Of a DNA stretch of 64,000 bases, positions 31,051 through 62,590 are shown piece by piece. The notes under the pieces were generated by a model that worked only from the letters and a program-made list of their open reading frames with translations, had not been told where the DNA came from and did no database searches. This DNA is from Candidatus Planktophila sp. GTDB lineage: Bacteria > Actinomycetota > Actinomycetes > Nanopelagicales > Nanopelagicaceae. Within the stretch, counting starts at the first letter, position 1. Each line of letters starts with the position of its first letter. Location: assembly GCA_030681675.1 (NCBI GenBank), contig JAUXRP010000014.1, positions 1 through 64,000 of the forward strand, read 5' to 3'. Position numbers and translations under genes: made by a program.

Positions 31051-34000
31051 TTAGACTAGGCAGTTTGGTCCTAGTATCGATTTCAAATCTGCGCTCAAAC
31101 TTGGCGATGCAGTAACAAGGGCATCAATCTTCATAAATGTATCAACCCCATTTTCATTAAGTTTGAGATGAACTTCGCGCTTTCCAGGATGCGAACGCAA
31201 AATCTCTTTAATTCGCTCGACAACTGGTGGAGTACATTGTGACATCGGGAGTGAAATCACTAAGGGACCGAGCGGGGCCATGGAAATATCTGGCATCGAC
31301 ATTTCCATAGCAGTAAATCGAAGAGCATCATCACGTCGATCAACACGGCCACGAACCGTCACAATTCGATCTTCAGTTAACGACATGGAGTACTGGTTAT
31401 ATGTCTTTGCAAAGAACAGAACCTCGAGTGAACCTTCAAGATCTTCAATTGTAACTACAGCCCATGAAGCACCCTGTCTAGAAACTTTCCTAGTAACACT
31501 GGTGATCAACCCGCCAATAGTGACTATAGATTCGCTCTGTGCTCCCTCATCTATAAGTTCGCTGATAGTCATATCAGTGCTAGAGCGCAAAATATGCTCA
31601 ACACCTAACAATGGATGGTCAGAGACATAGAGACCGAGCATTTCGCGCTCATAGCTAAGGAGCATTGGTTTATCCCACTCTCCTATTGGAATTTCCAGAT
31701 CTAAAGATTCGACTTGGCCTATATTTTCTCCACCAAATAAATCAAATTGACCAATTGCTTCAGCTCGTTTTGCTTCAATTACCGAATCGATGGCTTCAAG
31801 ATAGACCGCCATTAAACCCTTTCTAGTTACTCCCATCGATCCGAATGCTCCAGCTTTGATGAGAGATTCGATAGTTTTCTTATTACAGACTTGTGCATCA
31901 ACTTTGGCGAGGAAGTCACCAAATGAAGTAAATCGGCCTTTTGATTCGCGAGCGGTTTTTATAGAACCAACCACTCCCTCACCGACGTTGCGAATTGCGG
32001 CCAATCCAAATCTAATGTCATTTCCACGTGGCGTGTATTCGGCATCGGACTCATTTATATCTGGTTCCAGAACTTTGATTCCCATACGGCGACATTCGCT
32101 CAGATAAAGCGCTGATTTATCTTTATCATCACGCACACTTGTTAGAAGCGCAGCCATGTATTCAGTTGGATAGTTGGCTTTTAAGTACGCCGTCCAATAT
32201 GAAACAACCCCGTACCCTGCAGAGTGCGCACGATTAAATGCATAGTCAGAGAAGGGAATCAACACATCCCATAACCGCTTGATCGCTGTAGTTGAATATC
32301 CATTTTTTCTCATGCCAGCTTCAAAGGGAACATACTCTTTATCCAGAATATTTTTATCTTTCTTACCCATAGCTTTTCTCAGTAAATCTGCGCGGCCTAA
32401 CGAGAATCCAGCTACTTTCTGAGCTATGGCCATCACCTGTTCTTGATAGACGATAAGGCCATATGTATCCCCAAGAATCTCCGACAATGCATCCACGAGC
32501 TCTGGATGAATCGGTTCAACAGGTTTACGAGAATTCTTTCTATCGGCGTAGTTATTATGTGCATTTTCTCCCATTGGTCCTGGACGATATAGAGCAATAA
32601 CCGCTGAAATATCTTGAAAAGAATCGGGAGACATTGAACGAAGTAGAGCGCGCATTGGCCCACCATCGAGTTGGAAAACTCCTAATGTGTCACCCCGCGA
32701 CAAAAGTTCATATGTTTTTTTATCATCAAGAGTTAAATCCTCAAGAACAACTTTAATTCCTTGATTTGTTTCTATATTTATCAGGGCGTCATCTAGGACT
32801 GAGAGATTTCGAAGGCCCAGGAAGTCCATTTTAAGAAGTCCCGTCGCCTCACAAGCTCCCATGTCGAACTGTGTAATAATTGCGCCATCGGCCTCGCGTC
32901 GATGGATTGGAATCACATCTAATAGCGGTTCCCGTGAAAGAATTACACCGGCTGCATGAACTCCCCACTGGCGCTTCAAGCCCTCTAGGCCACGTGCAGT
33001 GTCCACTACACGTTTTGAGTCGGAATCAGATTCATACAGAGTTCGAAACTCACCGGCTTCTCCGTAACGATCATTCTTTGGATCAAAAACTCCACTCAGA
33101 GAAATGTCTTTACCCATTACCGATGGCGGAAGCGCTTTTGTAAGTTTTTCTCCAACAACATATGGATAGCCGAGTACGCGAGTTGAATCCTTTATAGCTT
33201 GCTTCGATTTAATGGTTCCATATGTAATTATCTGAGCAACTCGATCTTCGCCGTACTTTGTAGTGGCATAGCGAATCATTTCGCTACGTCGACGCTCGTC
33301 AAAGTCCAAATCAATATCTGGCATTGAGATTCTCTCTGGATTTAAAAAACGTTCAAAGAGGAGTCCATGTTCAAGGGGATCTAGACCTGTAATTCCAAGT
33401 GCATACGCTACAAGCGAACCGGGGGCAGAACCTCGGCCAGGGCCAACCCGAATTCCAACTTTTTTTGCATGCGCAACTAAATCAGCGACTACGAGAAAAT
33501 AGCCAGGAAATCCCATCTTCTCCATGACCCCAAGTTCATAGTTCAAGCGAGAGTGGTGCTCAGGAGTTACTCGCTCACCCATCCGCACAATAAGGCCAAG
33601 TTCGGCCTCGCTCTTTAGCCATGAATCCTCGGTGTGGCCTGCCGGGACAGTAAATGCTGGCAAGAGATTTTCACCCTCACGTAGTGTTACGTTGCAACGC
33701 TCAGCGATAAGTAAGGTGTTATCACAACTTTCAGGAATCTCTTTAAAAAGCTCGCGCATCTGCGCAGAAGTCTTGACGTAAAAACTATCGTTATCAAATT
33801 TAAATCGCTTCGGATCGGCCAAAGTGGAGCCAGATTGAACACAGAGAAGGGCCTCATGTGCTGGGGCATCAGATTGCAACGTATAGTGAAGATCATTCGT
33901 GGCAAGCAAAGGTAGACCTAATTCTTTAGCCAATTTCAAGAGATCGGATTTTACGCGGCTCTCAATTTCAATTCCATGATCCATAATCTCAAGGTAGAAA

Positions 34001-34548
34001 TTACCTGCCCCGAAAATATCTCTGTAGTCACTCGCTGCTTTTATAGCCTCTTTATAAGCCCCCATACGCAACCGAGTTTGCACTTCTCCGCCAGGACAGC
34101 CTGTAGTTGCAATTAATCCTGCCGAGTATTTAGCTAAAATCTCTCGATCCATGCGAGGCTTGTAGTAGTAACCCTCAAGAGAGGCAAGAGATGAGAGCTT
34201 AAATAGGTTCCCCAATCCAATATTGTTTTCAGCCAAGATTGTCATATGTGTATATGCACCACCACCTGAAACATCATCTTCGCCGCCATCTGCCCAGTTG
34301 ACACGCTTTTTCTCAAATCGAGATTCAGGCGCTACATACGCTTCAATACCAATGATTGGTTTAACGCCAGTTTTTTTTGCACCCCTATAAAAATCAAAAG
34401 CTCCGAAAACATTTCCGTGGTCGGTCATTGCAATTGCAGGCATACCTTGACGTACCACTTCATCCATGAGATCTCCCACTCGCGCGGCTCCATCTAGCAT
34501 CGAGTACTCGGTATGAACGTGAAGGTGGACGAAATTATCTTTAGTCAT
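31051..34548 (-). CDS. dnaE: DNA polymerase III, alpha subunit (replicative DnaE1)
   Basis: Main chromosomal replicase, 1165 residues. The N-terminal PHP domain keeps its metal ligands (H10-V-H12 in HLHVHTEYS, D42-H43 in TDHGN, later GIEAY and TNDLHY), so it probably proofreads as mycobacterial DnaE1 does. The palm carries PDIDLDFDERRR at about residues 409-420, then helix-hairpin-helix and OB domains. QFDLF near residue 930 is the beta-clamp binding motif. It lies 15 bases after rluD and 54 before hisD. A second alpha subunit, DnaE2, is encoded near the right end of the window. Confidence 0.98.
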   Translation of the reverse strand: MTKDNFVHLHVHTEYSMLDGAARVGDLMDEVVRQGMPAIAMTDHGNVFGAFDFYRGAKKTGVKPIIGIEAYVAPESRFEKKRVNWADGGEDDVSGGGAYTHMTILAENNIGLGNLFKLSSLASLEGYYYKPRMDREILAKYSAGLIATTGCPGGEVQTRLRMGAYKEAIKAASDYRDIFGAGNFYLEIMDHGIEIESRVKSDLLKLAKELGLPLLATNDLHYTLQSDAPAHEALLCVQSGSTLADPKRFKFDNDSFYVKTSAQMRELFKEIPESCDNTLLIAERCNVTLREGENLLPAFTVPAGHTEDSWLKSEAELGLIVRMGERVTPEHHSRLNYELGVMEKMGFPGYFLVVADLVAHAKKVGIRVGPGRGSAPGSLVAYALGITGLDPLEHGLLFERFLNPERISMPDIDLDFDERRRSEMIRYATTKYGEDRVAQIITYGTIKSKQAIKDSTRVLGYPYVVGEKLTKALPPSVMGKDISLSGVFDPKNDRYGEAGEFRTLYESDSDSKRVVDTARGLEGLKRQWGVHAAGVILSREPLLDVIPIHRREADGAIITQFDMGACEATGLLKMDFLGLRNLSVLDDALINIETNQGIKVVLEDLTLDDKKTYELLSRGDTLGVFQLDGGPMRALLRSMSPDSFQDISAVIALYRPGPMGENAHNNYADRKNSRKPVEPIHPELVDALSEILGDTYGLIVYQEQVMAIAQKVAGFSLGRADLLRKAMGKKDKNILDKEYVPFEAGMRKNGYSTTAIKRLWDVLIPFSDYAFNRAHSAGYGVVSYWTAYLKANYPTEYMAALLTSVRDDKDKSALYLSECRRMGIKVLEPDINESDAEYTPRGNDIRFGLAAIRNVGEGVVGSIKTARESKGRFTSFGDFLAKVDAQVCNKKTIESLIKAGAFGSMGVTRKGLMAVYLEAIDSVIEAKRAEAIGQFDLFGGENIGQVESLDLEIPIGEWDKPMLLSYEREMLGLYVSDHPLLGVEHILRSSTDMTISELIDEGAQSESIVTIGGLITSVTRKVSRQGASWAVVTIEDLEGSLEVLFFAKTYNQYSMSLTEDRIVTVRGRVDRRDDALRFTAMEMSMPDISMAPLGPLVISLPMSQCTPPVVERIKEILRSHPGKREVHLKLNENGVDTFMKIDALVTASPSLSADLKSILGPNCLV

Positions 34549-51552: not shown

Positions 51553-53045
51553 CTCTTATCCTCAATCGCTCGGGCTAATTCGATGCGATCATCAAAGGCA
51601 TGAATAACTCCATTTATCTCCTGCCCCATTTCATGGCCTTTGCCTAAGATAATCACAACATCACCAGTTTTGGCGTGATTGACGGCGGTTTTAATCGCTA
51701 ATGTGCGATCACTGATTACTTGATTTGGCGCTAAAATCTCAATGTTTTCTGTCATTTGTTCCAGAATAACCTCAGGATCTTCACTTCGTGGGTTATCGCT
51801 AGTGAAAATTGCTACATCCGCACCATTTCGAAGTGCCATTCCCATTAAGGACCGCTTTGATCTATCCCTATCTCCACCACAGCCCAAAACCGCGATGACA
51901 TTTCCATCTGAAATATCATGGGCGGTTTCTAGAACACGTGCAACAGCATCGGGAGAGTGTGCGTAATCAACCAGCGCAGTGAATTTTTGTCCTAGACGAA
52001 CTGCCTCTAGTCGGCCTTTTGCTCCAGTTAGTATCGGAATTATTGCAGCCACGTCAATCGGATCGACTCCACTTTCAACAGCAATAGCTACAGCCATAAG
52101 CAGATTGTCATAATTGAATCCGCCGTAAAGGCAAGTTTTGCCTTCGATGAGAATTCCGCCGCTTCCCCTAATTGAAACTGAGGCACCAACATAGTCACGA
52201 GTAATTGATGTGTAATGCCAACTCGCCTTTGAATTAGAACGAGAAAGCGTTATTACGGGAAGTTGAGTTAAATCTGCCAGTCTCGCACCGTATTGGTCGT
52301 CAATATTAATGACAGCAAGGTCAGCAAACTCGAAGGTGAAGAGTTCGGCCTTGACTTTAAAATAACTCTCCATTGATTTATGAAAATCTAAGTGGTCTTG
52401 AGAAAGATTTGTGAATCCAACTACAGCGAAGTGACTTCCTCGAACTCTCTCCAAACTTATTGCGTGACTTGAAACTTCCATGATGATATTGTGCATATGA
52501 CGTTCTCGCATAAGCGCACAGAGCGCCTGTAACTCTGAACTCTCTGGTGTCGTTCTTTTACTCAATAGCGCCTCGCTACCTATCCGAACCTCTACCGTAC
52601 CAATGAGCCCGCTTTCTCGTCCTACTGCTTGCATAATCTGGTGCAGTAAAGTCGTTACTGTAGTTTTACCGTTCGTACCAGTAACTCCAATGCTATATAA
52701 ATCTCGCATGGGTTCGCCATAGAACCAAGCACTTAAGACCCCTGCTGATCGACGCGGATTTGAACTAATTAAAACTGGCACTCCACTAATCTTTGATGCC
52801 CCTACAGCATCGCTAAGAACTGCCACAGCACCTTTGGCAATTGCATCGATTGCAAAGTCGGCGCCGTGATATTTTTCACCAGGCAACGCTACAAAGATGT
52901 CGCCTGCAACAATACTGCTACTAGCTTGTGATACTCCCGTTATTTCAACCGCGGATAATTCTCCTTGATTCAAAGTTGATGTTGCGCCAACTAAGGAGAG
53001 GATTGAAGCAAGATTTTTGTTGGAATTATTTAGAGGTCTTTGCAT
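51549..53045 (-). CDS. murE: UDP-MurNAc-L-Ala-D-Glu:meso-diaminopimelate ligase
   Basis: Adds the third amino acid of the stem peptide. The 498 residues show the ATP loop VTGTNGKTTVTTLLHQIM, the carbamylated-Lys region and the C-terminal specificity motif DNPR at 417-420 (TSDNPRSEDPE). DNPR marks meso-diaminopimelate as substrate, so the cell wall should be of the A1-gamma, DAP type. It overlaps ftsI by 20 bases. AAGGTG ahead of the ATG supports this start. Confidence 0.96.
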   Translation of the reverse strand: MQRPLNNSNKNLASILSLVGATSTLNQGELSAVEITGVSQASSSIVAGDIFVALPGEKYHGADFAIDAIAKGAVAVLSDAVGASKISGVPVLISSNPRRSAGVLSAWFYGEPMRDLYSIGVTGTNGKTTVTTLLHQIMQAVGRESGLIGTVEVRIGSEALLSKRTTPESSELQALCALMRERHMHNIIMEVSSHAISLERVRGSHFAVVGFTNLSQDHLDFHKSMESYFKVKAELFTFEFADLAVINIDDQYGARLADLTQLPVITLSRSNSKASWHYTSITRDYVGASVSIRGSGGILIEGKTCLYGGFNYDNLLMAVAIAVESGVDPIDVAAIIPILTGAKGRLEAVRLGQKFTALVDYAHSPDAVARVLETAHDISDGNVIAVLGCGGDRDRSKRSLMGMALRNGADVAIFTSDNPRSEDPEVILEQMTENIEILAPNQVISDRTLAIKTAVNHAKTGDVVIILGKGHEMGQEINGVIHAFDDRIELARAIEDKR

Positions 53046-54858
53046 GTGTCACCTTCTTTGCCACTAAATCTCTTTCCGTGAGTGCCACCGGAATCACAGT
53101 TGTACCAGTTGGTGCAATGTGTCGACTCTGTAAAACAAAAGACATAACCTTTTTGAAAACTGGACCACCAAGCGCGCCGCCCCAATGCATTCCCTTAGGA
53201 TCTTGAATCGTTACGCTGATTACGTAGGCAGGTTTATCTGCAGGTGCAAAGCCAATAAATGATGCGGTGTAGCCGCGATAACACCCACACGTGTCATCGA
53301 TGCGCATTGCAGTTCCGGTTTTTCCAGCGACTCGATAGCCATTTATCGCCGCACTAGGCGCGGTTCCCGCAGATGAAACTACACTCTCCATCATTATTCG
53401 CATCGCCTTTGCGGTTTCAATACTAATAACTCGCTCACTCGTGCGACCTTGCGCAGGAGTGTAGTTTCCACTTGAATCACTCGTACCAGCAATTACAGTT
53501 GGAGAGACTCGTACACCGTTATTTGCAATCGTCGCAAAAATACTGGTGGCCTGCATCGACGTTAATGAGTATCCCTGGCCAAATGCAACCGTAGGAGCAG
53601 TTGTTCCTGACCAATCAGCTACTTCAGGCAGAATTCCTCGTGATTCACCCGGAAGCCCCGAACCAGTTTTCACACCAACGCCGAACTTCGAAAGATAATT
53701 AAAAAGTACTTGGTTAGGTAGGAGTTCTCCGATCTGGATTGTGCCTGTATTGCTTGAAACCGCTAAAACACCCGAAGAAGTCAGACGTTGAGTGGGATGT
53801 TTTTCATGATCATGAAAAACTCTATTAGAACGCTTCAGAGTGTAAGGAATCGTAAATACTGTTTCGGGAGTTATTTTTTTCTCCTCTAAGGCCGCGGCAA
53901 CTGTCATAACTTTTCCTGTTGAGCCAGGTTCGTAAACATCTTGCACGGAAGGATTTCGCATCGCAACGAGGGAGACTTTAGATGTGTGATTTGGATTAAA
54001 GGTCGGAGCTGTAGCATGAGCTAAAATTTCACCTGTTGCAGGATCCAGAACAATGACGGTTCCACTTATGGCTCTTGATGATTTAACGGCATCAGAGATT
54101 GCCTTGGAAGCTACCCACTGAATATCACGGTCAATAGTCAAACGCACCGACGTTCCTGCTTGCGCTGGAATTATTTCAGACTGGGATCCCGGAATTTCAG
54201 CCCCATACCCATTGGCATAGGAGTATTTGCCGTCAACTCCTGAAATTATGGAGTTCATACTGGATTCAAGGCCAGTTGCTCCCACTCCACTGCGATTAAC
54301 AAAGCCAACAAGAGATGCTATGAGTGAACCTGAGGGATATTCGCGAATATAGCTACTTTCTGGGAAAAAACCTATGATGCGCTGAGGACTCATCGCCGGA
54401 AATTTTTCATTATAATTTGCTATCTCTGAGCTCAATTTCTGCCAAGTTGCAGGTTTAGCATTTTGAAAGACCATGCTCCATTTACGCTCACCGGTAATGC
54501 TTGATTCAACTTCTGCAACCGTTAAACCTAAAATTGGTGCAACAAAACTTGCTACACGTGAAGGATTTGTGATCTGTGTTTGATCGACAACAATGCTTGT
54601 GGCTGCAACGCTTCTCGCAAAAGCAACTCCATGTACATCGGTTATTTCACCGCGAGGGGCAAGAAGCGAACGAGTATTTTCCATTTCATTAACTGCGCGC
54701 AATCGATAGTCCCCCGCCTGTAAGGCTTGGACTTGGACGAGGCGAGCTCCAAACAAGAGCATAAAGACAGTAATTACCAGCACTAAGAGTCGAATGCGGC
54801 CGTGCGCAAGGGCAAAATTACCCATTGCTCGCACTCTGCGATTCAATACTTTCTGCAT
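53026..54858 (-). CDS. ftsI: Septal transpeptidase FtsI (class B penicillin-binding protein)
   Basis: Cross-links septal peptidoglycan with FtsW. Up to 610 residues: an N-terminal membrane helix (LLVLVITVFMLLFGARLVQV), the pedestal domain and the transpeptidase with S313-T-G-K316 (EPGSTGKVM), SSN (AVSSNTGT) and K513-T-G (AGKTGTA). A Cys pair, CGC near the end (DDTCGCYRGY), is unusual in its spacing. Two starts are possible: 54858, overlapping ftsL by 41 bases, or ATG at 54825 (MGNFALAHG), overlapping it by eight. Neither has a strong ribosome binding site. Confidence 0.95.
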   Translation of the reverse strand: MQKVLNRRVRAMGNFALAHGRIRLLVLVITVFMLLFGARLVQVQALQAGDYRLRAVNEMENTRSLLAPRGEITDVHGVAFARSVAATSIVVDQTQITNPSRVASFVAPILGLTVAEVESSITGERKWSMVFQNAKPATWQKLSSEIANYNEKFPAMSPQRIIGFFPESSYIREYPSGSLIASLVGFVNRSGVGATGLESSMNSIISGVDGKYSYANGYGAEIPGSQSEIIPAQAGTSVRLTIDRDIQWVASKAISDAVKSSRAISGTVIVLDPATGEILAHATAPTFNPNHTSKVSLVAMRNPSVQDVYEPGSTGKVMTVAAALEEKKITPETVFTIPYTLKRSNRVFHDHEKHPTQRLTSSGVLAVSSNTGTIQIGELLPNQVLFNYLSKFGVGVKTGSGLPGESRGILPEVADWSGTTAPTVAFGQGYSLTSMQATSIFATIANNGVRVSPTVIAGTSDSSGNYTPAQGRTSERVISIETAKAMRIMMESVVSSAGTAPSAAINGYRVAGKTGTAMRIDDTCGCYRGYTASFIGFAPADKPAYVISVTIQDPKGMHWGGALGGPVFKKVMSFVLQSRHIAPTGTTVIPVALTERDLVAKKVTHAKTSK

Positions 54859-55219
54859 CTAAGTTTAAAAATACTGGAGATTCGGAAGGTTTCATTCCAA
54901 GTGCGACAGCGGAACGGGCAAGTGCTTCTGGGGATGATTGAGCATCTATTTGACGTGCAATCGCCTCGCGCTGATCACTGACCATCTTTACTTCCAGTTT
55001 AAGGTGCGTTAGTGCAAAAGCATCTTGTGCCAAAAGAGTATTTACAGTAAGGAGTAGAAGTAAGCCAGTGGCCCCTATAGCAGAAACAAAAATTGCAAAG
55101 TATTTTCTTTTTGCCTGTGCATCGGGAGAAATATCTGGAACAAGCTTTAAGGCTACCTTCGTCGACTTTTGTGCAAACCTTTCCCGTGAACGAGTAACTG
55201 CCGTTGCCGTCAATGCCAT
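54818..55219 (-). CDS. ftsL: FtsL-like septum protein
   Basis: A 133-residue bitopic protein between rsmH and ftsI, the usual place of ftsL. It has a basic cytoplasmic tail of about 40 residues, a membrane helix at about 42-63 (FAIFVSAIGATGLLLLLTVN) and an extracytoplasmic coiled-coil segment (LTHLKLEVKMVSDQREAIARQ) with the typical GM phrase (ALGMKPS). It would bridge FtsQ and FtsI-FtsW. The start shares one base with the rsmH stop. The call rests mainly on position and topology, since FtsL sequences diverge strongly. Confidence 0.88.
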   Translation of the reverse strand: MALTATAVTRSRERFAQKSTKVALKLVPDISPDAQAKRKYFAIFVSAIGATGLLLLLTVNTLLAQDAFALTHLKLEVKMVSDQREAIARQIDAQSSPEALARSAVALGMKPSESPVFLNLDAESIESQSASNG

Positions 55220-56172
55220 TATGCGGCCACTCTTTCAATAGCGCGCAGACGAACTGATGCCGAACGTGAATTTCCCTCGAGTTCTTGGACATCAGATGTT
55301 TCGCTTCCGCGAAAGACAAGCGAAAACTTAGCTGCTAATTCAGGTAACTCGAATGGAAGTTCGCGAGGTGTTCCAGATGTTGTCGAGCCAATAAAAAGAT
55401 CTTTTACAATTCGATCTTCAAGAGATTGAAAGGACATAACCACAAGTCGTCCTCCAACGCGTAGCAATTTAAGTGCTTCTGGCAGAGCTCGAGTTATCGC
55501 ACCAAGCTCATCGTTCGTTTCTATGCGAAGGGCTTGAAATGTTCGCTTGGCTGGATTGCCACCGGTACGACGAGTGGCAGCAGGTATAGCATTCTTGACC
55601 AATGTAGCAAGCTGGGCAGTTGAATTAAGAGGTTCTTTTGCACGTGCCTTTACAATCGATTCAACAACGCGAGTGGCATATTTCTCTTCACCGTAAGAAC
55701 GCAAAATTCGAACTAATTGACCTGGTTCATACGTATTGATGATTTCGGCGGCAGTTAGACTTTGGCTCTGATCCATCCGCATATCAAGTGGAGCATCATG
55801 TGAGTATGAAAAGCCACGATTTGTTTCATCAAGCTGCATGGATGAAACACCAAGATCAAAAAGTGCACCAGCAATGTGTGTATAGCCAAATGATTCTACA
55901 ACACTGCCAATTGCATCAAAACTGGTATGAAAAGTAAGTAGACGATCAGAGTATGCCGCCAAACTCTGAGTTGCTCTAGCCAATGCATCTTGATCGCGAT
56001 CGATACCAATAACAGTTAGTGTTGGAAACTTTTCTAGCAAGGCTTCTGTGTGTCCTCCAAGGCCTAATGTCGCATCAACAATTACTGGATGCTCTGTTGC
56101 CTTAATTGCAGGCTCGAGGAGTTCAATGCATCTATCTCGCATTACAGATATGTGTGCGTTTTTATCAATCAT
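55219..56172 (-). CDS. rsmH: 16S rRNA m4C1402 methyltransferase RsmH (MraW)
   Basis: SAM-dependent enzyme that N4-methylates C1402 in the ribosomal P site. The 317 residues have HISVMRDRCIELLEP, the SAM site VDATLGLGGHTEALLE, GIDRDQDALARA, LFDLGVSSMQLDE and AKRTFQALRIETNDEL. The ATG follows AAGGGGGAG. It is separated from mraZ by a 157-base spacer with a structured RNA, while downstream genes touch or overlap. Confidence 0.97.
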   Translation of the reverse strand: MIDKNAHISVMRDRCIELLEPAIKATEHPVIVDATLGLGGHTEALLEKFPTLTVIGIDRDQDALARATQSLAAYSDRLLTFHTSFDAIGSVVESFGYTHIAGALFDLGVSSMQLDETNRGFSYSHDAPLDMRMDQSQSLTAAEIINTYEPGQLVRILRSYGEEKYATRVVESIVKARAKEPLNSTAQLATLVKNAIPAATRRTGGNPAKRTFQALRIETNDELGAITRALPEALKLLRVGGRLVVMSFQSLEDRIVKDLFIGSTTSGTPRELPFELPELAAKFSLVFRGSETSDVQELEGNSRSASVRLRAIERVAA

Positions 56173-56221
56173 TACTCCCCCTTTACTTGATATTTAATAT
56201 CTACTTACATTCTCTGTTTTC

Positions 56222-56327
56222 AACTCTCATCTCTGGTCACCGCCGGCCGACGGATCTATTTAGTAGCGGCGCCGGGGAAGGGGCGCCGATACGTTCGAAA
56301 GGTCGGCGGTGGCCACAAATGAGAGTT
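56222..56327 (-). ncRNA. Structured RNA element between mraZ and rsmH, mraW-motif-like
   Basis: A GC-rich nested fold in a mostly AT-rich spacer. The outer stem pairs 56222-56230 with 56319-56327 (9 bp). A second stem pairs 56234-56244 with 56305-56315 (11 bp with one G-U) and continues GAC 56249-56251 with GTC 56302-56304 after a bulge. An apical hairpin pairs CGGCGCC 56267-56273 with 56282-56288 around an eight-base loop, CCTTCCCC on the minus strand. A cis-acting mraW RNA motif is known directly upstream of mraW (rsmH) in actinobacteria, and the position agrees. The fold is clear; membership in that family is inferred. Confidence 0.75.
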
Positions 56328-56329
56328 CG

Positions 56330-56761
56330 TTAGAACAAACCTGGAAAGACCTCCTCAGAAACATCTGCAAAGCTCTTTTCGCGATCTGCTAAATACTCAT
56401 TCCACGATGTTGAATCCCAAATTTCAACACGTGTGTTTGCACCAATGACTACGCAATCCTTTTCAAGTCCGGCATATGTACGAAGATTTTGCGGAATTGT
56501 TATGCGACCTTGTCGATCTGGAATCTCATCGTGCGCGCCGGCAAACATCACTCGGCTGTAATCGCGAGCTGCTTTAGCTGTGACCGGTGCTTGTTTCAAC
56601 GTCTGTGTTATAACTTCAAATTCACTCGACGGAAAAACATAGAGACAACGCTCTTGACCTTTAGTAATGACTAAACCAGAAGCCAACTCTTCTCGAAATT
56701 TCGCGGGAAGAATGAGTCGGCCTTTTTCATCAAGACGTGGTTCATGGGTACCAAGAAACAT
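56330..56761 (-). CDS. mraZ: Transcriptional regulator MraZ
   Basis: A 143-residue DNA-binding protein with two SpoVT-AbrB-like half domains, [16 protein letters not shown] near residues 11-26 and [18 protein letters not shown] near 81-98. MraZ binds direct repeats ahead of its own gene and controls the division cluster. Four tandem 10-base repeats lie 49-88 bases upstream of its ATG, which fits self-regulation. It is the first gene of the cluster that runs to yggT. The start after the AAGGGG region is well placed for the family. Confidence 0.96.
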
Positions 56762-56809
56762 GTGTACCCCTTCCCCAAGGTCGCTCGCCGTATGAAACTT
56801 CGGCTTAGT

Positions 56810-56849
56810 TCCCCACTTTACTCCATTTTCCTCCTTTTTACACCACTTT
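56810..56849 (-). promoter_or_regulatory. Tandem 10-bp MraZ boxes ahead of mraZ
   Basis: On the minus strand four 10-base units follow without gaps: AAAGTGGTGT, AAAAAGGAGG, AAAATGGAGT, AAAGTGGGGA. MraZ is known to bind TGG-containing direct repeats with 10-bp spacing, so that subunits of its ring face the same side of the helix. A TAATAT at 56857-56862, just upstream, may be the -10 element. Confidence 0.75.
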
Positions 56850-56898
56850 GAGCCAAATATTAACTGTTTTCATCCACATCGCCCCACCTTTCAGGCAT

Positions 56899-56929
56899 TA
56901 AAAATGGCCCCCCTTTAAAGGGAGGCCAT
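56899..56929 (-). terminator. Rho-independent terminator after the DUF3040 gene
   Basis: A near-perfect palindrome at 56904-56929 (ATGGCC...GGCCAT with one mismatch) is followed on the minus strand by TTTTTAAT. It begins 18 bases after the DUF3040 stop and separates the SOS cassette and DUF3040 from the mraZ promoter. It is the clearest terminator in the window. Confidence 0.85.
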
Positions 56930-56946
56930 CTCATCAAAGCGAGAGA

Positions 56947-57294
56947 TTATTGATTATTACGCTCATCCCAACGCTCTTCAAGGCGTGAGCCGAGACCAGT
57001 TTTTTTGCGAGCGCCTTTTATGCGAGGGCTGCGTGTTCCCACAGAGGAGACAATCGCAATTACTCCAGTAAGTGCGATGAGAAAGCCAAGAACCCCAACG
57101 GGTGTCGTTTTAGCTACTAAGCCAGCAAAGAGTGTGACGGTTCCACTGAGAATGAGAGCTGCACCAATTAGAGTTCGCGTGCGGCGCGGCGGCCGAGCTT
57201 CACCAGATAAGGCTGAAAATAGGCGTGGATCCTCGGTTAAGAGCGCAGCCTCCATCTCCTGGAGCATTCGCTTCTCATGATCAGATAGTGGCAT
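56947..57294 (-). CDS. DUF3040 membrane protein
   Basis: A 115-residue protein of a family found almost only in actinobacteria. It starts with the DUF3040 signature PLSDHEKRMLQEMEAALLTEDPRLFSAL, followed by a basic stretch (RPPRRTRT), two membrane segments at about 42-62 and 65-84, and a basic C-terminal tail with Arg and Lys. The function is unknown. It commonly lies between dinB and mraZ in actinobacteria, as here. It is 36 bases after dinB and is followed by a terminator. Confidence 0.92.
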   Translation of the reverse strand: MPLSDHEKRMLQEMEAALLTEDPRLFSALSGEARPPRRTRTLIGAALILSGTVTLFAGLVAKTTPVGVLGFLIALTGVIAIVSSVGTRSPRIKGARKKTGLGSRLEERWDERNNQ

Positions 57295-57330: not shown

Positions 57331-58506
57331 TTATTCACTCTCTGTTGACGCTGGTTTAATTAATCGAGCTGGACGCACGCTCCCTGCGCCAAATCGAGCC
57401 CTTGCACGGTCAATAGCACCATCGGCCTGGCGCCAACCACTCTCCCGCGCTCCTAATACCAACTGCTCAGGAGCGCGCCCGCTTAAATTCTCAAGGCTAA
57501 CTCCGACTAATCGAAGGCGAGCCCGGTCGATTTTGAGTGCTTCATAGAGGGCCTTAACAACCTCATAAATCTCATGTGTTCCATTTATCGGTAATGCAAG
57601 AGTTTTCGATCTATTAATAGTTGAAAAATCGGCAAAGCGTACTTTTATTGAAATAGTTTTAGTAAAGAGCTCTTTATCTCGAAGCTTCGCCGATGCACGT
57701 TCGGTTAAACGCAAAAATTCAGTCAAAATTTCAGCAGGGCTATCTAAATCGCGGGCAAAAGTTTCGGCCGCGCTAATGCTCTTTTCAGCATCGTGGGGAG
57801 TCACATCGCGATAGTCACGACCCCAGGCAAGCTCATAGAGCGATGCCCCACTGGCCTGTCCCAATGCACGAATCAAAGTGGCGCGTGGCAAGTTCGCGAT
57901 ATCTTCAATAGTTCGTAGACCTAAACGCTCTAGAGTTTGCGCTGTTTTTTCTCCTACTCCCCACATCGCTTGAATCGGTAATGGATGTAAGAAAGTCAGA
58001 ATGCGATCAGCTGTAATCTCAAGCACTCCATTGGGTTTGCAGTTCTGCGATGCAAGTTTTGCAATGAACTTTGATGGCGCAATTCCAACTGAACATGTTA
58101 TTCCCTCTTGCGCCTCTACCTTTGCTCGTATCAATGTTGCAATTTCGCGCGGTGAGCCAATTAAGCGTTCTACCCCGCTCACATCTAAGAAAGCTTCATC
58201 AAGGGAGATGGGTTCGACCCATGGAGTAAAACTTTCGAAGATGTTCATCACGTGTGATGAGACTTCTTGATAGCGCTTCATATCTACCGGTAAAAAGATA
58301 GCGTGAGGTGCTAAGCGGCGAGCTCGACCCACCGGCATCGCTGCATGTATTCCAAATTTGCGAGCCTCGTAATTAGCGGCCGAGACAACGCCACGCGCAC
58401 CCATTCCAATTACTACTGCTTTACCTTTTAGTTCGGGGTTATCGCGCTCGGCAACAGAGGCAAAAAACGCATCCATGTCCACGTGAAGAATCGAAGCCGA
58501 ACTCAT
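57331..58506 (-). CDS. dinB: DNA polymerase IV (Y family), catalytically complete
   Basis: Translesion polymerase, 391 residues. Both catalytic blocks are intact: D10-M-D12 (HVDMDAFFASV) and D103-E104 (SLDEAFLDV). The helix-hairpin-helix (MWGVGEKTAQTLERLGL) and little-finger domains are present, and EQLVLG near the C-terminus could be the beta-clamp motif. The start overlaps dnaE2 by four bases. In mycobacteria the DnaE2 partner ImuB lacks catalytic residues; here the gene in the dnaE2 operon encodes an active-type polymerase, so it differs from ImuB. Confidence 0.95.
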   Translation of the reverse strand: MSSASILHVDMDAFFASVAERDNPELKGKAVVIGMGARGVVSAANYEARKFGIHAAMPVGRARRLAPHAIFLPVDMKRYQEVSSHVMNIFESFTPWVEPISLDEAFLDVSGVERLIGSPREIATLIRAKVEAQEGITCSVGIAPSKFIAKLASQNCKPNGVLEITADRILTFLHPLPIQAMWGVGEKTAQTLERLGLRTIEDIANLPRATLIRALGQASGASLYELAWGRDYRDVTPHDAEKSISAAETFARDLDSPAEILTEFLRLTERASAKLRDKELFTKTISIKVRFADFSTINRSKTLALPINGTHEIYEVVKALYEALKIDRARLRLVGVSLENLSGRAPEQLVLGARESGWRQADGAIDRARARFGAGSVRPARLIKPASTESE

Positions 58507-61500
58507 ATTGCCAGCGTACTTTCTTTAGTACGCCACGTTTCATATGCCGCGCGCAAATCCCAGGCACCTGTTCCGTTTATTGAAATTCCACGCGCACCTG
58601 TCCGGCGGGTAATACCCCGAACCAGCAACAGGGATGATGAATACAGAACGCTGGCATAGTCAGTCTGTACATCGCTAAAGAATGCCGAGTCGCTACAGCC
58701 ATATCCATCATCGAGGGTTAAAAAGATAACTCGTTTACCTGAGCGCACGGGTGGAGTCTGCATCGCAACTTTAATGCCAGCTACAAGAACACTAGAGCGT
58801 GAACGAGCCTCTAGTAACTGCGATGATCGAACAGCGCCGATAGCATTAAGAAAATCGCTATAAAACTCAATTAAATGGCGGGACATGTCAATACCTAAGC
58901 GATCAACTTCATGGCGCACGCTTTCGGCAGAGTTCATATCGGGGAGACCGCTGCTAATGAGGGCGGGCGGGGCAAACGCTAAGTTCATTTGTGCGCCAGA
59001 GATAGTTTTATTCGGCGAGCGTTCTACATCAGATAGATGAAGCAAAAGATCGCGGCGGTTAACATCGGTATGTAAGCGGTCAAAAGCTCCTGTAAGAATC
59101 ATGCTTTCAGTAACTGGAGCGCTACTACCAGAGCGATGTATGAAGTCAGAGATATCCGTGTAAGGACGACCAGCGATAATCGATGCAATCTCACCATCAC
59201 TAATTTTTGAAATAGTCGATAGCGCAATACGGATTGCTCTCCCTTTTTCTTCAACACGATATAGAGAATCAGATTCATTAACATCTAGCGGTGCGATAGC
59301 AATCGACATCCGACGCGCCTCATCGACGATTAAACGTTTGGGATACATGCCCGGCTCGTGCGTGAGCACCCCCGTCAAAAAAGCTGCAGGGTAATGCGCC
59401 TTTAACCAGGCCGATTGGTATGTGGGCATAGCAAAGGCGGCGGCATGGGCTTTGCAAAAACCAAAGGATGCGAAGGCGCGCAAAAGCTCCCAAATCTCAT
59501 TGATGATGGGCAGTTCATATCCGCGCGATGTCGCGGCGGGAAAAAACCAGTCGCAGACCTCTTGTGCACCACTCTTATCTCCCAACGCGCGACGTTTTTC
59601 ATCGGCGCTAGCTAAAGAAGCACCTGTCATCGCCGCAATGATCTGGATTACCTGCTCGTGAAATACGACGACACCCTCAGTATCTCGCAAGATTTCATAG
59701 AGATCGGGGTGAATAATCTGGGCTTTGCTCCACCCATGACGTGCCTTTAAAAAGGGCGTAATCATGTCACCTTTAACCGGGCCTGGACGAAAGAGAGAGA
59801 TATCGATAATCAAATCAGTAAAGGTTTTAGGCTCGAGTTTGCCAACTAGTTCGCGCTGGCCCGGACTTTCAACTTGGAAAATTCCAAGGGTATGTGTTGA
59901 TTGAATCAACTCATATGTACGTGCATCATCTAGTGGCACTGCATCGATATCGATTTTCATATCCTGCGTGCGTTCGATTTCAGTGAGAGCATATGAAATA
60001 GCAGATTGCATGCGCACACCCAGTACATCTAGTTTCAATAAACCAATAGCTTCGACATCATCTTTATCAAAGGTGGACATCGGATAACCACTGGCATTAG
60101 CAACCAGAGGTGTGCGATCTAATAGGCCGCCATCAGATAAAACTATGGCGCATGGATGCATCGCTAAATGCCTTGGTAGTCCATCAAGGCGCTCGGCTAA
60201 AGCAATCGTCATCGCAGTAAGCGGGGCTTTAACATTGAGAGATTTAAGTTCAGGCAGGTTTTCAAGTGCGCTAGATATGTTGCGCGCACGTACATGTGGC
60301 ATTGACTTTGCCAACATATCAATCTCCATCGCAGGAAGGCCAAGGGCCGCCCCGGCATCGCGAATTGCATGCCTGGCTCGATATGTATCGACCATCGCAA
60401 CGGTTGCACAACGCGATTGATTATTGGGCGTGTCCCAGTTTGTATCGCCATAGCGTTTGAAAACCATGTCATAGATTTCAAGGCGTCGGTGGGATTCAAC
60501 ATCGATATCGATATCAGGCAGAGCCCTGCGCAAGGGTGAACAAAAGCGCTCCATTAATAAACCGTGCGCCATGGGTTCAACACCTGAGATTCCAAGTAAG
60601 TGACAGATAAGCGAGCCCGCACCACTGCCGCGAGCAGCCACGCGGATACCAGCACCGCGCGCCATGTCGCAGATATCGGCAACGGTTAAAAAATAAGATT
60701 CAAAACCCAGTGTTGCAACCGTTGATAGTTCATCATCTAAACGTGCGCGTGCTTTTTTAATTGCACCACTATCGCTATAGCGCCAATTGATTCCGGCCTC
60801 ACTACGAGTGCGCAATACCATGCGCATCTCATGTGCAGATTGTGCACCGACGACATGGGGCTCAGGCAAGTGTGCGCCACCCAAACCAATATCGCGTGCA
60901 GGAGATAATAAAGCGCGCTCGGCCCACGCCCGAGTCGTTGCAAGTAGTTGACGCGGTGTGCGCTCTCCAGCGGCACGCGCAATTTCGCCAGCTAATGAAA
61001 CCATCTCATCGTCGGATTTTAAAAAGCCCTCAGCATTGCGGCGCTCAACATGACGTGGATGCAAAGGCACTAACTGACGCGCACAATCTAAAACATCTGC
61101 CACTGGTCCATCAGCGCGATCTCGCATACGTACAGCATTTGTAATAACGGCATCGATATCGTGATCGCGAGCAAAAATCAGTGACTTGGCAGCATGTGCC
61201 ATCGAGCGCGGGCCTTTGCCTGCAACTACATGTGAAACGCACTCGATAGCGTTACCGGCAAATAAATCCCGAACTGCATTAAATGTTGAAAAAGCGGCAT
61301 CGATACGGTTATCGGTTAGTAGCGCCCCCACTGGTGATTCAGGGCCATGCAGCGCGTAAAGATGTGAACTGTAATGGCTAAAGCGTTGCAGGAATTCAAG
61401 GGTAAGAACGGGGTTGCGATTATCACTGACCATGGCTAGCGAAGTTAACAATCGGCACAACGCCGGCCATCCCCCATCACTATGAGCAAGTAGTGTGATG

Positions 61501-61730
61501 CGGTTTTTAGCACTCCCTACATCAATACCGAGATTGACTCCGATGATTGGTGCAATGCCATAGTCAACACAACTTTGCGCAAAGCGAACTGCGCCAGCTA
61601 AACCATCACGATCGGTCAGCGCTAGAGCTGGCATCTCAAACTCGGCTGCGCGCGCAACTAAATCATGTGGCTGGGTTGTGCCGTATTTGAGTGAGTAGGC
61701 ACTTGCAACATTGAGGTGAATAAAACTCAT
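58503..61730 (-). CDS. dnaE2: Error-prone DNA polymerase DnaE2
   Basis: Alpha-subunit-like polymerase for SOS mutagenesis, 1075 residues. The order is PHP, palm (PDIDIDVESHRR at about 403-414), KLDVLGVRMQSAI, HGWSKAQIIHPDL, the helix-hairpin-helix region and a C-terminal OB fold (VIFLTLDDGYGCSDSAFF). The PHP domain has lost key metal ligands: residues 5-9 read HLNVA where DnaE1 has HLHVH, and residues 39-41 read TDR where DnaE1 has TDH. It overlaps both the DUF6504-like gene and dinB by four bases. Its GC content looks somewhat higher than that of the division cluster. Confidence 0.95.
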   Translation of the reverse strand: MSFIHLNVASAYSLKYGTTQPHDLVARAAEFEMPALALTDRDGLAGAVRFAQSCVDYGIAPIIGVNLGIDVGSAKNRITLLAHSDGGWPALCRLLTSLAMVSDNRNPVLTLEFLQRFSHYSSHLYALHGPESPVGALLTDNRIDAAFSTFNAVRDLFAGNAIECVSHVVAGKGPRSMAHAAKSLIFARDHDIDAVITNAVRMRDRADGPVADVLDCARQLVPLHPRHVERRNAEGFLKSDDEMVSLAGEIARAAGERTPRQLLATTRAWAERALLSPARDIGLGGAHLPEPHVVGAQSAHEMRMVLRTRSEAGINWRYSDSGAIKKARARLDDELSTVATLGFESYFLTVADICDMARGAGIRVAARGSGAGSLICHLLGISGVEPMAHGLLMERFCSPLRRALPDIDIDVESHRRLEIYDMVFKRYGDTNWDTPNNQSRCATVAMVDTYRARHAIRDAGAALGLPAMEIDMLAKSMPHVRARNISSALENLPELKSLNVKAPLTAMTIALAERLDGLPRHLAMHPCAIVLSDGGLLDRTPLVANASGYPMSTFDKDDVEAIGLLKLDVLGVRMQSAISYALTEIERTQDMKIDIDAVPLDDARTYELIQSTHTLGIFQVESPGQRELVGKLEPKTFTDLIIDISLFRPGPVKGDMITPFLKARHGWSKAQIIHPDLYEILRDTEGVVVFHEQVIQIIAAMTGASLASADEKRRALGDKSGAQEVCDWFFPAATSRGYELPIINEIWELLRAFASFGFCKAHAAAFAMPTYQSAWLKAHYPAAFLTGVLTHEPGMYPKRLIVDEARRMSIAIAPLDVNESDSLYRVEEKGRAIRIALSTISKISDGEIASIIAGRPYTDISDFIHRSGSSAPVTESMILTGAFDRLHTDVNRRDLLLHLSDVERSPNKTISGAQMNLAFAPPALISSGLPDMNSAESVRHEVDRLGIDMSRHLIEFYSDFLNAIGAVRSSQLLEARSRSSVLVAGIKVAMQTPPVRSGKRVIFLTLDDGYGCSDSAFFSDVQTDYASVLYSSSLLLVRGITRRTGARGISINGTGAWDLRAAYETWRTKESTLAI

Positions 61731-62002
61731 ATCGATCTAATAATCCATTGACCGCTGAGTTCATCGCGCTCTAATTCAAAGGTTGTAAGAGCACCAAGAG
61801 GGGCCGCCTCAACGCGCCAGACTGCACGAGCGGCATCATCGGGGCGATACTTTCCATCGCTAATTCGATTCCACCAACCTCCAGCTTCGCACCATCTAGA
61901 TAAAACTGCGTGGATACGAAAGCGCTTGCCCTTGAATGTAAACTCGATAGGAGTAGTTGCACCATCGATCATGACATCGTGGGCGGAGTTAATCTGGGTC
62001 AT
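61727..62002 (-). CDS. DUF6504-like small protein, first gene of the SOS cassette
   Basis: A 91-residue soluble protein resembling DUF6504 proteins of actinobacteria. It has a beta-rich core (TPIEFTFKGKRFRIHAVLSRWCEAGGWWN) and a Trp- and Arg-rich second half (AVWRVEAAP, LERDELSGQWIIRSI) that could bind nucleic acid or a partner polymerase. The function is unknown. It overlaps dnaE2 by four bases and lies 33 bases downstream of a LexA box, so it should be made only on DNA damage. AAGGAG lies 12 bases ahead of the ATG. Confidence 0.82.
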   Translation of the reverse strand: MTQINSAHDVMIDGATTPIEFTFKGKRFRIHAVLSRWCEAGGWWNRISDGKYRPDDAARAVWRVEAAPLGALTTFELERDELSGQWIIRSI

Positions 62003-62034
62003 TTCTAAGGTGTGCTCCTTGAGAGTGTGGATAT

Positions 62035-62050
62035 TCGAACAGGTGTTCGA
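62035..62050. promoter_or_regulatory. LexA binding site (SOS box) of the dnaE2 cassette
   Basis: TCGAACAGGTGTTCGA is a perfect match to the actinobacterial and firmicute-type SOS box TCGAAC-N4-GTTCGA. It lies 33 bases upstream of the DUF6504-like ATG. Further TTCGAA-type half sites flank it (ATATTCGAA at about 62056-62064). It faces the minus-strand cassette. Confidence 0.9.
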
Positions 62051-62176: not shown

Positions 62177-62590
62177 ATGGACGCAGTACTACTCATCGGC
62201 CGAGTGCTATTTGCCGCGATTTTTATCTACTCAGGAATTGCCCACATCACCAAAACTCAAGCACTCACTGGATATGCAACATACAAAAAAGTTCCAGCGG
62301 CAAAGCTTGCAGTGATTGTGTCAGGTCTGATGATTTTAGTAGGTGGTCTCTATATTGCAAGTGGAGTGTATGCCGATCTCGGCGCGCTTCTTATTGCAAT
62401 CTTCTTAGTTCCAACGGCTCTCCAGATGCACGCATTTTGGAAAGAGAGCGATGCAACTGCAAAGCAGAGCGAAAGAACGCACTTTCTAAAAGATATTTCG
62501 CTTGCAGGTGCCGCCTTAATTATTTTTGCACTAGTTGGAGCAGGCGCAGATTTCGGCCCAAGTATTACGGGCACTTTCTTTAACTTTTAA
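62177..62590 (+). CDS. DoxX family membrane protein
   Basis: A 137-residue protein with four membrane segments. It begins LLIGRVLFAAIFIYSGIAHITK, the usual DoxX start, and ends with a helix (ISLAGAALIIFALVGAGADFG). DoxX proteins often take part in redox or thiol stress complexes, as in mycobacteria. AAAGGAG lies four bases ahead of the ATG. The inverted repeat upstream suggests repression by a MarR-type regulator. It ends seven bases from the convergent MFS gene. Confidence 0.88.
   Translation: MDAVLLIGRVLFAAIFIYSGIAHITKTQALTGYATYKKVPAAKLAVIVSGLMILVGGLYIASGVYADLGALLIAIFLVPTALQMHAFWKESDATAKQSERTHFLKDISLAGAALIIFALVGAGADFGPSITGTFFNF

Follow-up and report, generated by a model that had tools for sequence, protein, structure and literature searches.

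A predicted LexA-controlled mutasome operon combining DnaE2, an intact DinB and a standalone ImuB C-terminal domain in Candidatus Planktophila

The 64,000-nucleotide stretch analysed here (positions 1 to 64,000 of contig JAUXRP010000014.1, assembly GCA_030681675.1, from a Candidatus Planktophila sp.; hereafter the window) carries on its minus strand a three-gene operon that we interpret as a probable LexA-controlled translesion mutasome. The host has a small genome and is an actinobacterium, probably aquatic and of Nanopelagicales type. The genes run in the order DUF6504, dnaE2, dinB behind a single SOS box. The first (61727-62002) is an open reading frame (ORF) for a 91-residue protein, predicted to be a standalone ImuB C-terminal (ImuB-C) domain and matched by Pfam as DUF6504 (39.2 bits, cut-off 24.2). 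The second (58503-61730) encodes DnaE2, an error-prone C-family polymerase of 1075 residues that is DnaE2B-like by its domains and position in a tree, and the third (57331-58506) encodes DinB, a catalytically intact Y-family polymerase of 391 residues. Consecutive genes overlap by four bases, at 61727-61730 (DUF6504/dnaE2) and 58503-58506 (dnaE2/dinB). The SOS box, or LexA operator (CGAACACCTGTTCG, with a palindromic core), occupies 62036-62049; no other perfect site occurs in the window. It sits 33 bases ahead of the first start codon, and between the two a Shine-Dalgarno-like AAGGAG (62015-62020, minus strand), read from the sequence, lies 12 bases 5' of the first ATG (62002). An earlier sequence-only reading of this DNA had described the perfect box and the overlaps, and both are present as described. 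A scan for a sigma-70 promoter upstream of the operon found none.

The arrangement is strongly conserved within the genus. Among 28 same-genus loci (the window included), 25 hold dinB and 27 hold the small-protein gene, all misses falling at contig ends. With the earliest start codons taken, DUF6504 either overlaps dnaE2 or is separated from it by no more than 18 bases in all 27 loci that have both, and dnaE2 and dinB overlap in all 24 loci that have all three genes. For the three genes together, 20 of 21 pair comparisons gave a ratio of non-synonymous to synonymous substitution rates (dN/dS) of 0.02-0.06, the remaining pair having been set aside for an unusable dS; this supports the view that all three genes are under purifying selection. 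In the other same-genus genomes a DnaE2-type match was found in 30 of 36 among the matches listed, and the remaining six are 60-84% complete. A wider scan of named genomes found 558 relatives, of which the best 80 loci were kept, some of them of the same species as the same-genus set; here DUF6504 lies upstream of dnaE2 in 70, and dinB downstream in 67, in two of these more than 5 kb away.

A perfect SOS site appeared in 6 of 100 shuffled versions of the window. The box is perfect in all 25 same-genus loci whose contig reaches it (the window included), and in the wider scan 67 of the 70 DUF6504 loci have a perfect site no more than 900 bases ahead of the DUF6504 stop, the other three having a site with one mismatch. 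Genome-wide, the perfect pattern CGAAC-N4-GTTCG occurs four times, namely before lexA, before recA, before the operon and inside uvrB; the operon and recA sites share an identical 14 bases in opposite orientation relative to the gene. When one mismatch is allowed, 53 sites are found in the genome as against 41 for a control pattern, and weaker SOS sites are therefore indistinguishable from chance. With an operator upstream of the operon and a lexA gene, itself preceded by a perfect box, elsewhere in the genome, the predicted LexA control of the operon is well supported, in agreement with the earlier proposal. A related dnaE2-dinP operon of Streptomyces venezuelae is described as a LexA target that is strongly induced by damage (PMC9380542). 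The uvrB palindrome lies within the coding end of that gene, some 80 bases before uvrA (G000:C11:1365-1378, L088), and is possibly a LexA site for uvrA, or else a chance occurrence. The operon's own box stands in a 174-base gap shared with a DoxX-family gene (Pfam; 62177-62590, plus strand) transcribed away from the operon, and could act on doxX too.

Both polymerases appear to be active. Pfam recognises C-family polymerase domains in the 1075-residue protein, whose catalytic Asp406 and Asp408 (60507-60515, minus strand) are kept in 27 of 27 same-genus rows with a letter there, and whose third catalytic residue, Asp568 (60027-60029, minus strand), is kept in 28 of 28. DinB is recognised by Pfam (IMS and IMS_C) and, as DNA polymerase IV, by NCBIfam (PRK03858 and PRK02406, both over cut-off). 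Its two catalytic blocks, D10 with D12 (58471-58479) and D103 with E104 (58195-58200), both on the minus strand, are intact in all 25 same-genus DinBs, the window included, which bears out the earlier remark that the Y-family gene retains both.

The affiliation of DnaE2 was examined in a tree of 38 rows (quick search, LG+G4; L278 and L279 were dropped, having no long open frame with the motif). The window DnaE2 falls in a 22-row group with Streptomyces-type, mostly DUF6504-linked DnaE2s (100 in the Shimodaira-Hasegawa-like approximate likelihood ratio test, SH-aLRT). A separate 11-row group (SH-aLRT 100) has 10 rows that derive from imuA-imuB cassettes or from genomes in which an ImuB-like gene is present. 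A long-branched Rubrobacter row is of unsure placement. In this tree, which is our own and not the published one, the window protein therefore lies on the branch not linked to ImuA or ImuB, as DnaE2B does.

The sequence-only reading had treated the 91-residue protein as a small unknown. The C-terminal domain of ImuB was named ImuB-C by Aravind and co-workers, who noted standalone copies beside SOS polymerases (PMC3765255). The DUF6504 profile (PF20114) matches three of seven proteobacterial ImuBs (best E 1.2e-4), and where positions are known the match is to the extreme C-terminus (426-500 of 503 and 427-499 of 504). In the reverse direction, a profile (ImuB1-C) built solely from seven proteobacterial ImuB C-termini was searched against 19,031 ORFs, 109 of which are DUF6504 by a profile of our own; its 11 matches at E<=10 comprised eight DUF6504 ORFs (E 0.002-0.17) and three of the ImuBs used for training, with zero others. 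Profile-profile comparison by hhalign of DUF6504 with the proteobacterial ImuB-C gave E 2e-5 at 75-77% probability, a score reached by none of 100 column shuffles; early hhalign runs on shallow alignments had given low probabilities, from 0.06 to 28%, and the ImuB1-C comparison improved later with more sequences. On these Pfam, hidden Markov model (HMM) and hhalign results we identify the 91-residue protein as a free-standing ImuB C-terminal domain, and ImuB-C as Pfam's DUF6504.

An AlphaFold2 model shows the protein as largely beta, with a single helix (mean predicted local distance difference test score, pLDDT, 81.8) and agrees with the beta-barrel reported for ImuB-C (PMC12926913). A search of solved-structure sequences with the protein returned nothing significant (best E 8.5), and Foldseek with the model gave zero matches at E<=0.001. 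The best VIA-align match had a Z of 7.1, to engineered Adhiron/Affimer scaffolds, a level that the tool deems uninformative; hence we claim no fold for the protein. A possible relative of the locus was seen on a plasmid of Rubrobacter tropicus, where a hypothetical protein (L085:3528-3971) scores 22.7 bits with DUF6504, under the 24.2 cut-off. Its gene overlaps a DnaE2-like gene by four bases, lexA is divergent and nearby, and the locus possibly belongs to the same module type.

Genes for ImuA' and ImuB were screened for genome-wide in the assembly, which is 97.9% complete in 46 contigs. The sole Y-family gene found in the genome is dinB. With PF00154, one RecA lies over the cut-off, accompanied by two weak sub-cut-off matches without assignment. 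A profile of nine actinobacterial ImuA' proteins matched RecA alone, at 37 bits, as against best matches of 195-248 bits in four control genomes belonging to families in the profile. This draft genome thus has RecA and, in these searches, neither ImuA' nor ImuB, as the sequence-only reading had held for ImuA' from the operon by itself; a separate LexA-controlled imuA'-imuB pair, which would have undone that reading, was not found anywhere in the genome.

DinB also carries a tail of note. Between the little finger and the tail, a QLVLG motif (57451-57465, minus strand; Q[LM]xLG in 24 of 24 full-length same-genus DinBs) is of a type that we take to be clamp-binding, with a presumed role in contacting the sliding clamp. 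It is followed, in the tail, by a motif resembling the RecA N-terminus, ADGAIDRARARFGAGSV (57376-57426, minus strand), which is kept in 24 of 24 full tails; the RecA of the same genome carries TALAQIERQFGKGSV near its N-terminus. The likeness between DinB tails and RecA N-termini was also detected by hhalign (80%, E 1.3e-5, 0 of 100 column shuffles as high), with both alignments pre-chosen for the FG motif. ImuB and ImuA' of mycobacteria interact through the equivalent motif in ImuB (PMC11791113). From the tail motif and this analogy, DinB would most likely dock on RecA. Furthermore, because the tail holds such a motif, RecA itself is more likely than the 91-residue protein to take the place of ImuA'.

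Taken together, the operon probably encodes a translesion mutasome that is under LexA control and belongs to the type made up of DnaE2B, an active PolY, a standalone ImuB-C and RecA. DNA damage would activate RecA and lead to self-cleavage of LexA, so that lexA, recA and the operon are induced together. DinB would then dock on RecA through its tail motif, in parallel to ImuB on ImuA, and contact the sliding clamp through QLVLG. The DUF6504 protein would act as the adaptor of DnaE2 by way of the PHP domain, as has been modelled for the ImuB of M. tuberculosis (PMC12926913). In effect, ImuB would be split in two, with DinB as a platform that is still catalytic and DUF6504 as the DnaE2 adaptor, and the two error-prone polymerases may alternate at a lesion. 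The earlier suggestion of a different mutasome stands insofar as two apparently active polymerases and a small protein are kept together under purifying selection; the part that made the small protein an unknown or a substitute for ImuA' does not.

This composition has already been predicted in print. A complex of DnaE2B, an active PolY, standalone ImuB-C and RecA, confined to actinobacteria and supported by AlphaFold, is described in Nucleic Acids Research (NAR) 2026 (PMC12926913), and variants lacking ImuA were described as early as 2019 (PMC6511836); the window operon is hence a further case of a known, computationally predicted module. With that module, exemplified by Tessaracoccus lapidicaptus, it shares a DnaE2 outside the imuA/imuB branch, an active PolY with a RecA-N-terminus-like tail, a standalone ImuB-C, the lack of ImuA and ImuB, the presence of RecA and an actinobacterial host. 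No essential difference was seen in a comparison based on the paper's description of the module rather than on the Tessaracoccus locus. Set beside it, the window has all three genes overlapping under one SOS box, and the only Y-family gene of the genome inside the module. The names 'Nanopelagic' and 'Planktophila' are absent from the main text of that paper. Here the predicted module takes the form of a compact and strongly conserved operon, in a lineage with a small genome where DinB is the only Y-family gene found; it therefore offers a clean test case for two active error-prone polymerases sharing one accessory set. The role of the small protein is also corrected, and Pfam's unnamed DUF6504 is tied to the ImuB-C domain.

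Other SOS polymerase systems fit less well. The ImuA'-ImuB-DnaE2 mutasome of mycobacteria and proteobacteria likewise combines LexA control, DnaE2, a partner of Y-family fold and an ImuB-C domain, whereas in the window ImuA' is absent, the Y-family protein is neither catalytically dead nor fused to ImuB-C, the latter being separate, and DnaE2 belongs to another branch. The DnaE2-DinB2 operon of Streptomyces (scDinB2 type) also unites dnaE2 with a Y-family gene in a single operon induced by the SOS response (for the window, this induction is predicted). As described in PMC6511836, its Y-family protein is inactive (iPolY) and ImuB-C is missing, whereas the window has an intact Y-family active site and an ImuB-C. 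The lexA-imuB-C-polY operon of Geobacter sulfurreducens, which is damage-induced, resembles the window in having a standalone ImuB-C adjoining an active PolY but differs in lacking DnaE2 and in having lexA inside the operon (PMC6511836).

Several results weigh against the proposed mutasome. In the two ImuBs with known match positions, PF20114 scored 22.6 and 20.9 bits, just under the 24.2 cut-off, and it gave no match in four of the seven proteobacterial ImuBs. The ImuB1-C profile, though free of false matches, recovered just 8 of the 109 DUF6504 ORFs, and an HMM of the actinobacterial ImuB2-C (row L145 dropped for a long insert) recovered no DUF6504. By hhalign, DUF6504 against all 45 ImuB2-C rows gave only E 0.019, a score reached by 3 of 100 shuffles, while rows 19-45, nearly all from outside the close relatives, gave E 5.4e-4 with 0 of 100; the homology of DUF6504 to the actinobacterial ImuB2-C is accordingly weak. 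A single-profile HMM search with the DinB tail against 8,628 sequences did not find RecA at significance (E 16), so that the RecA-like motif is detected by hhalign and not by the HMM search alone. PF00817, by which ImuB was excluded, failed to match one of the seven proteobacterial ImuBs and is thus an imperfect screen. Finally, dnaE2 of S. coelicolor is reported to have no phenotype (PMC3919608).

The main alternative is co-induction only, in which DinB would work alone with RecA and the clamp, and DnaE2 with ImuB-C, without a joint complex. DUF6504-dnaE2 pairs do occur without a nearby dinB in Geodermatophilaceae loci (L213, L235 and L239) and in genome G052, PMC12926913 describes a DnaE2B group linked to ImuB-C only, and DinB, as the sole Y-family gene found, may also serve general polymerase IV work. 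Against this stand the gene order kept throughout the genus, as counted above, and the published AlphaFold models, which according to the text of PMC12926913 exceed the complex threshold for every module type. We regard separate action of the two polymerases as unlikely.

That the 91-residue protein replaces ImuA', as the sequence-only reading proposed, is very improbable. Its gene comes first, in the position of imuA in the proteobacterial cassettes examined; yet the protein is mostly beta and matches ImuB-C, whereas ImuA' is RecA-like, the ImuA' profile matches the cell's own RecA and not the operon, and the tail of DinB has a motif like the RecA N-terminus, such as serves for binding to RecA or ImuA. 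This candidate was rejected on the ImuA' profile result, the beta model and the ImuB-C profile.

A canonical imuA'-imuB pair hidden in the 2% of the genome missing from the assembly, a reading for which the draft state and the two weak PF00154 matches leave some room, is extremely improbable and was rejected: besides the single Y-family gene, the single RecA over cut-off and the ImuA' profile result, ImuA' was not found in the five of five single-contig same-genus genomes searched (one stray match, E 0.08), DnaE2 groups apart from imuAB-linked DnaE2s, and among 20 genomes of the class, chosen by DUF6504 status, 13 of the 16 that lack DUF6504 have ImuB-like matches, as against 0 of the 4 that have it.

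Returning to the proposed mutasome, its components recur widely: on the sequence comparisons, the module is widespread in actinobacteria and not unique to this genome. The nearest named relatives among the best 80 loci include IMCC26103, which has a complete genome and a DnaE2 74% identical to that of the window, BACL15 and metagenome-assembled genomes (MAGs) labelled Nanopelagicaceae; other titles differ. Five MAGs titled Bifidobacterium breve (L169, L187, L192, L204 and L216) encode DnaE2s 49-79% identical to that of the window, and their titles look mislabelled. Ten of the 80 loci lack DUF6504 upstream: three (L196, L208 and L221) begin at a contig end, and among the seven with upstream sequence (L198, L202, L204, L232, L233, L234 and L236) four hold a HEPN_SAV_6107 gene instead and three neither.

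A HEPN-profile gene in fact lies just upstream of dnaE2 in 32 of the best 80 named loci, preceded by DUF6504 in 28. Pfam gave HEPN_SAV_6107 for all three genes checked, two of them from those 32 and the third from an imuAB-type locus. Loci with the gene between DUF6504 and dnaE2 fall within L199-L239 (e.g. L210:6523-6946 and L206:6366-6825), with a further case at G056:C7:60179-60886. PF18726 (HEPN_SAV_6107) is present in 74 of 98 genomes sampled from the class; where DUF6504 is over cut-off (46 genomes), 32 have it 68-509 bases downstream of DUF6504, 3 have it elsewhere, and 11 lack it. It was not found in the window's own genome or in the five other same-genus genomes of that sample. In five actinobacteria with an ImuB-like gene, HEPN_SAV_6107 instead has a full-scoring Y-family gene no more than about 1 kb away (G037:C2:116967-117960, G050:C321:227-1210, G046:C72:58876-60619, G049:C167:16529-18159 and G081:C1:288757-290399), a hint that its partner may be the Y-family polymerase. 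In G074 and G131 it stands about 1 kb from the ImuB-like gene.

The available text of PMC3710099 gives the SAV_6107 family as actinobacterial and contains no DnaE terms. Our literature search found no paper joining HEPN, DnaE2 and ImuB, none with HEPN being among the matches listed. Tentatively, the ancestral actinobacterial cassette may have been a four-protein SOS mutasome of ImuB-C, HEPN_SAV_6107, DnaE2B and active DinB, which the window lineage would have reduced to three proteins. In this minimal form one ImuB-C subunit would allow DnaE2 and DinB to replace each other on a single RecA platform, and the three proteins would form the cell's whole Y-family and DnaE2 translesion capacity. If so, HEPN_SAV_6107 would have a role, so far unrecognised, in regulating error-prone polymerases; the gene beside the module in many other actinobacteria is in any case a lead.

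On the other side of the operon, a DUF3040 gene (Pfam) lies directly 3' of dinB, within 53026-57294 of the window. Beyond it, in the same interval, are what we take from their translations to be mraZ, rsmH, ftsL and a gene for a penicillin-binding protein, so that the operon adjoins a presumed cell-division cluster. The gene for the replicative DnaE1 (31330-34536) and dnaE2 share a strand and are about 24 kb apart, and the spacing is about equal in other same-genus genomes, for example G002, G007, G011, G014, G015, G018, G024, G026 and G033.

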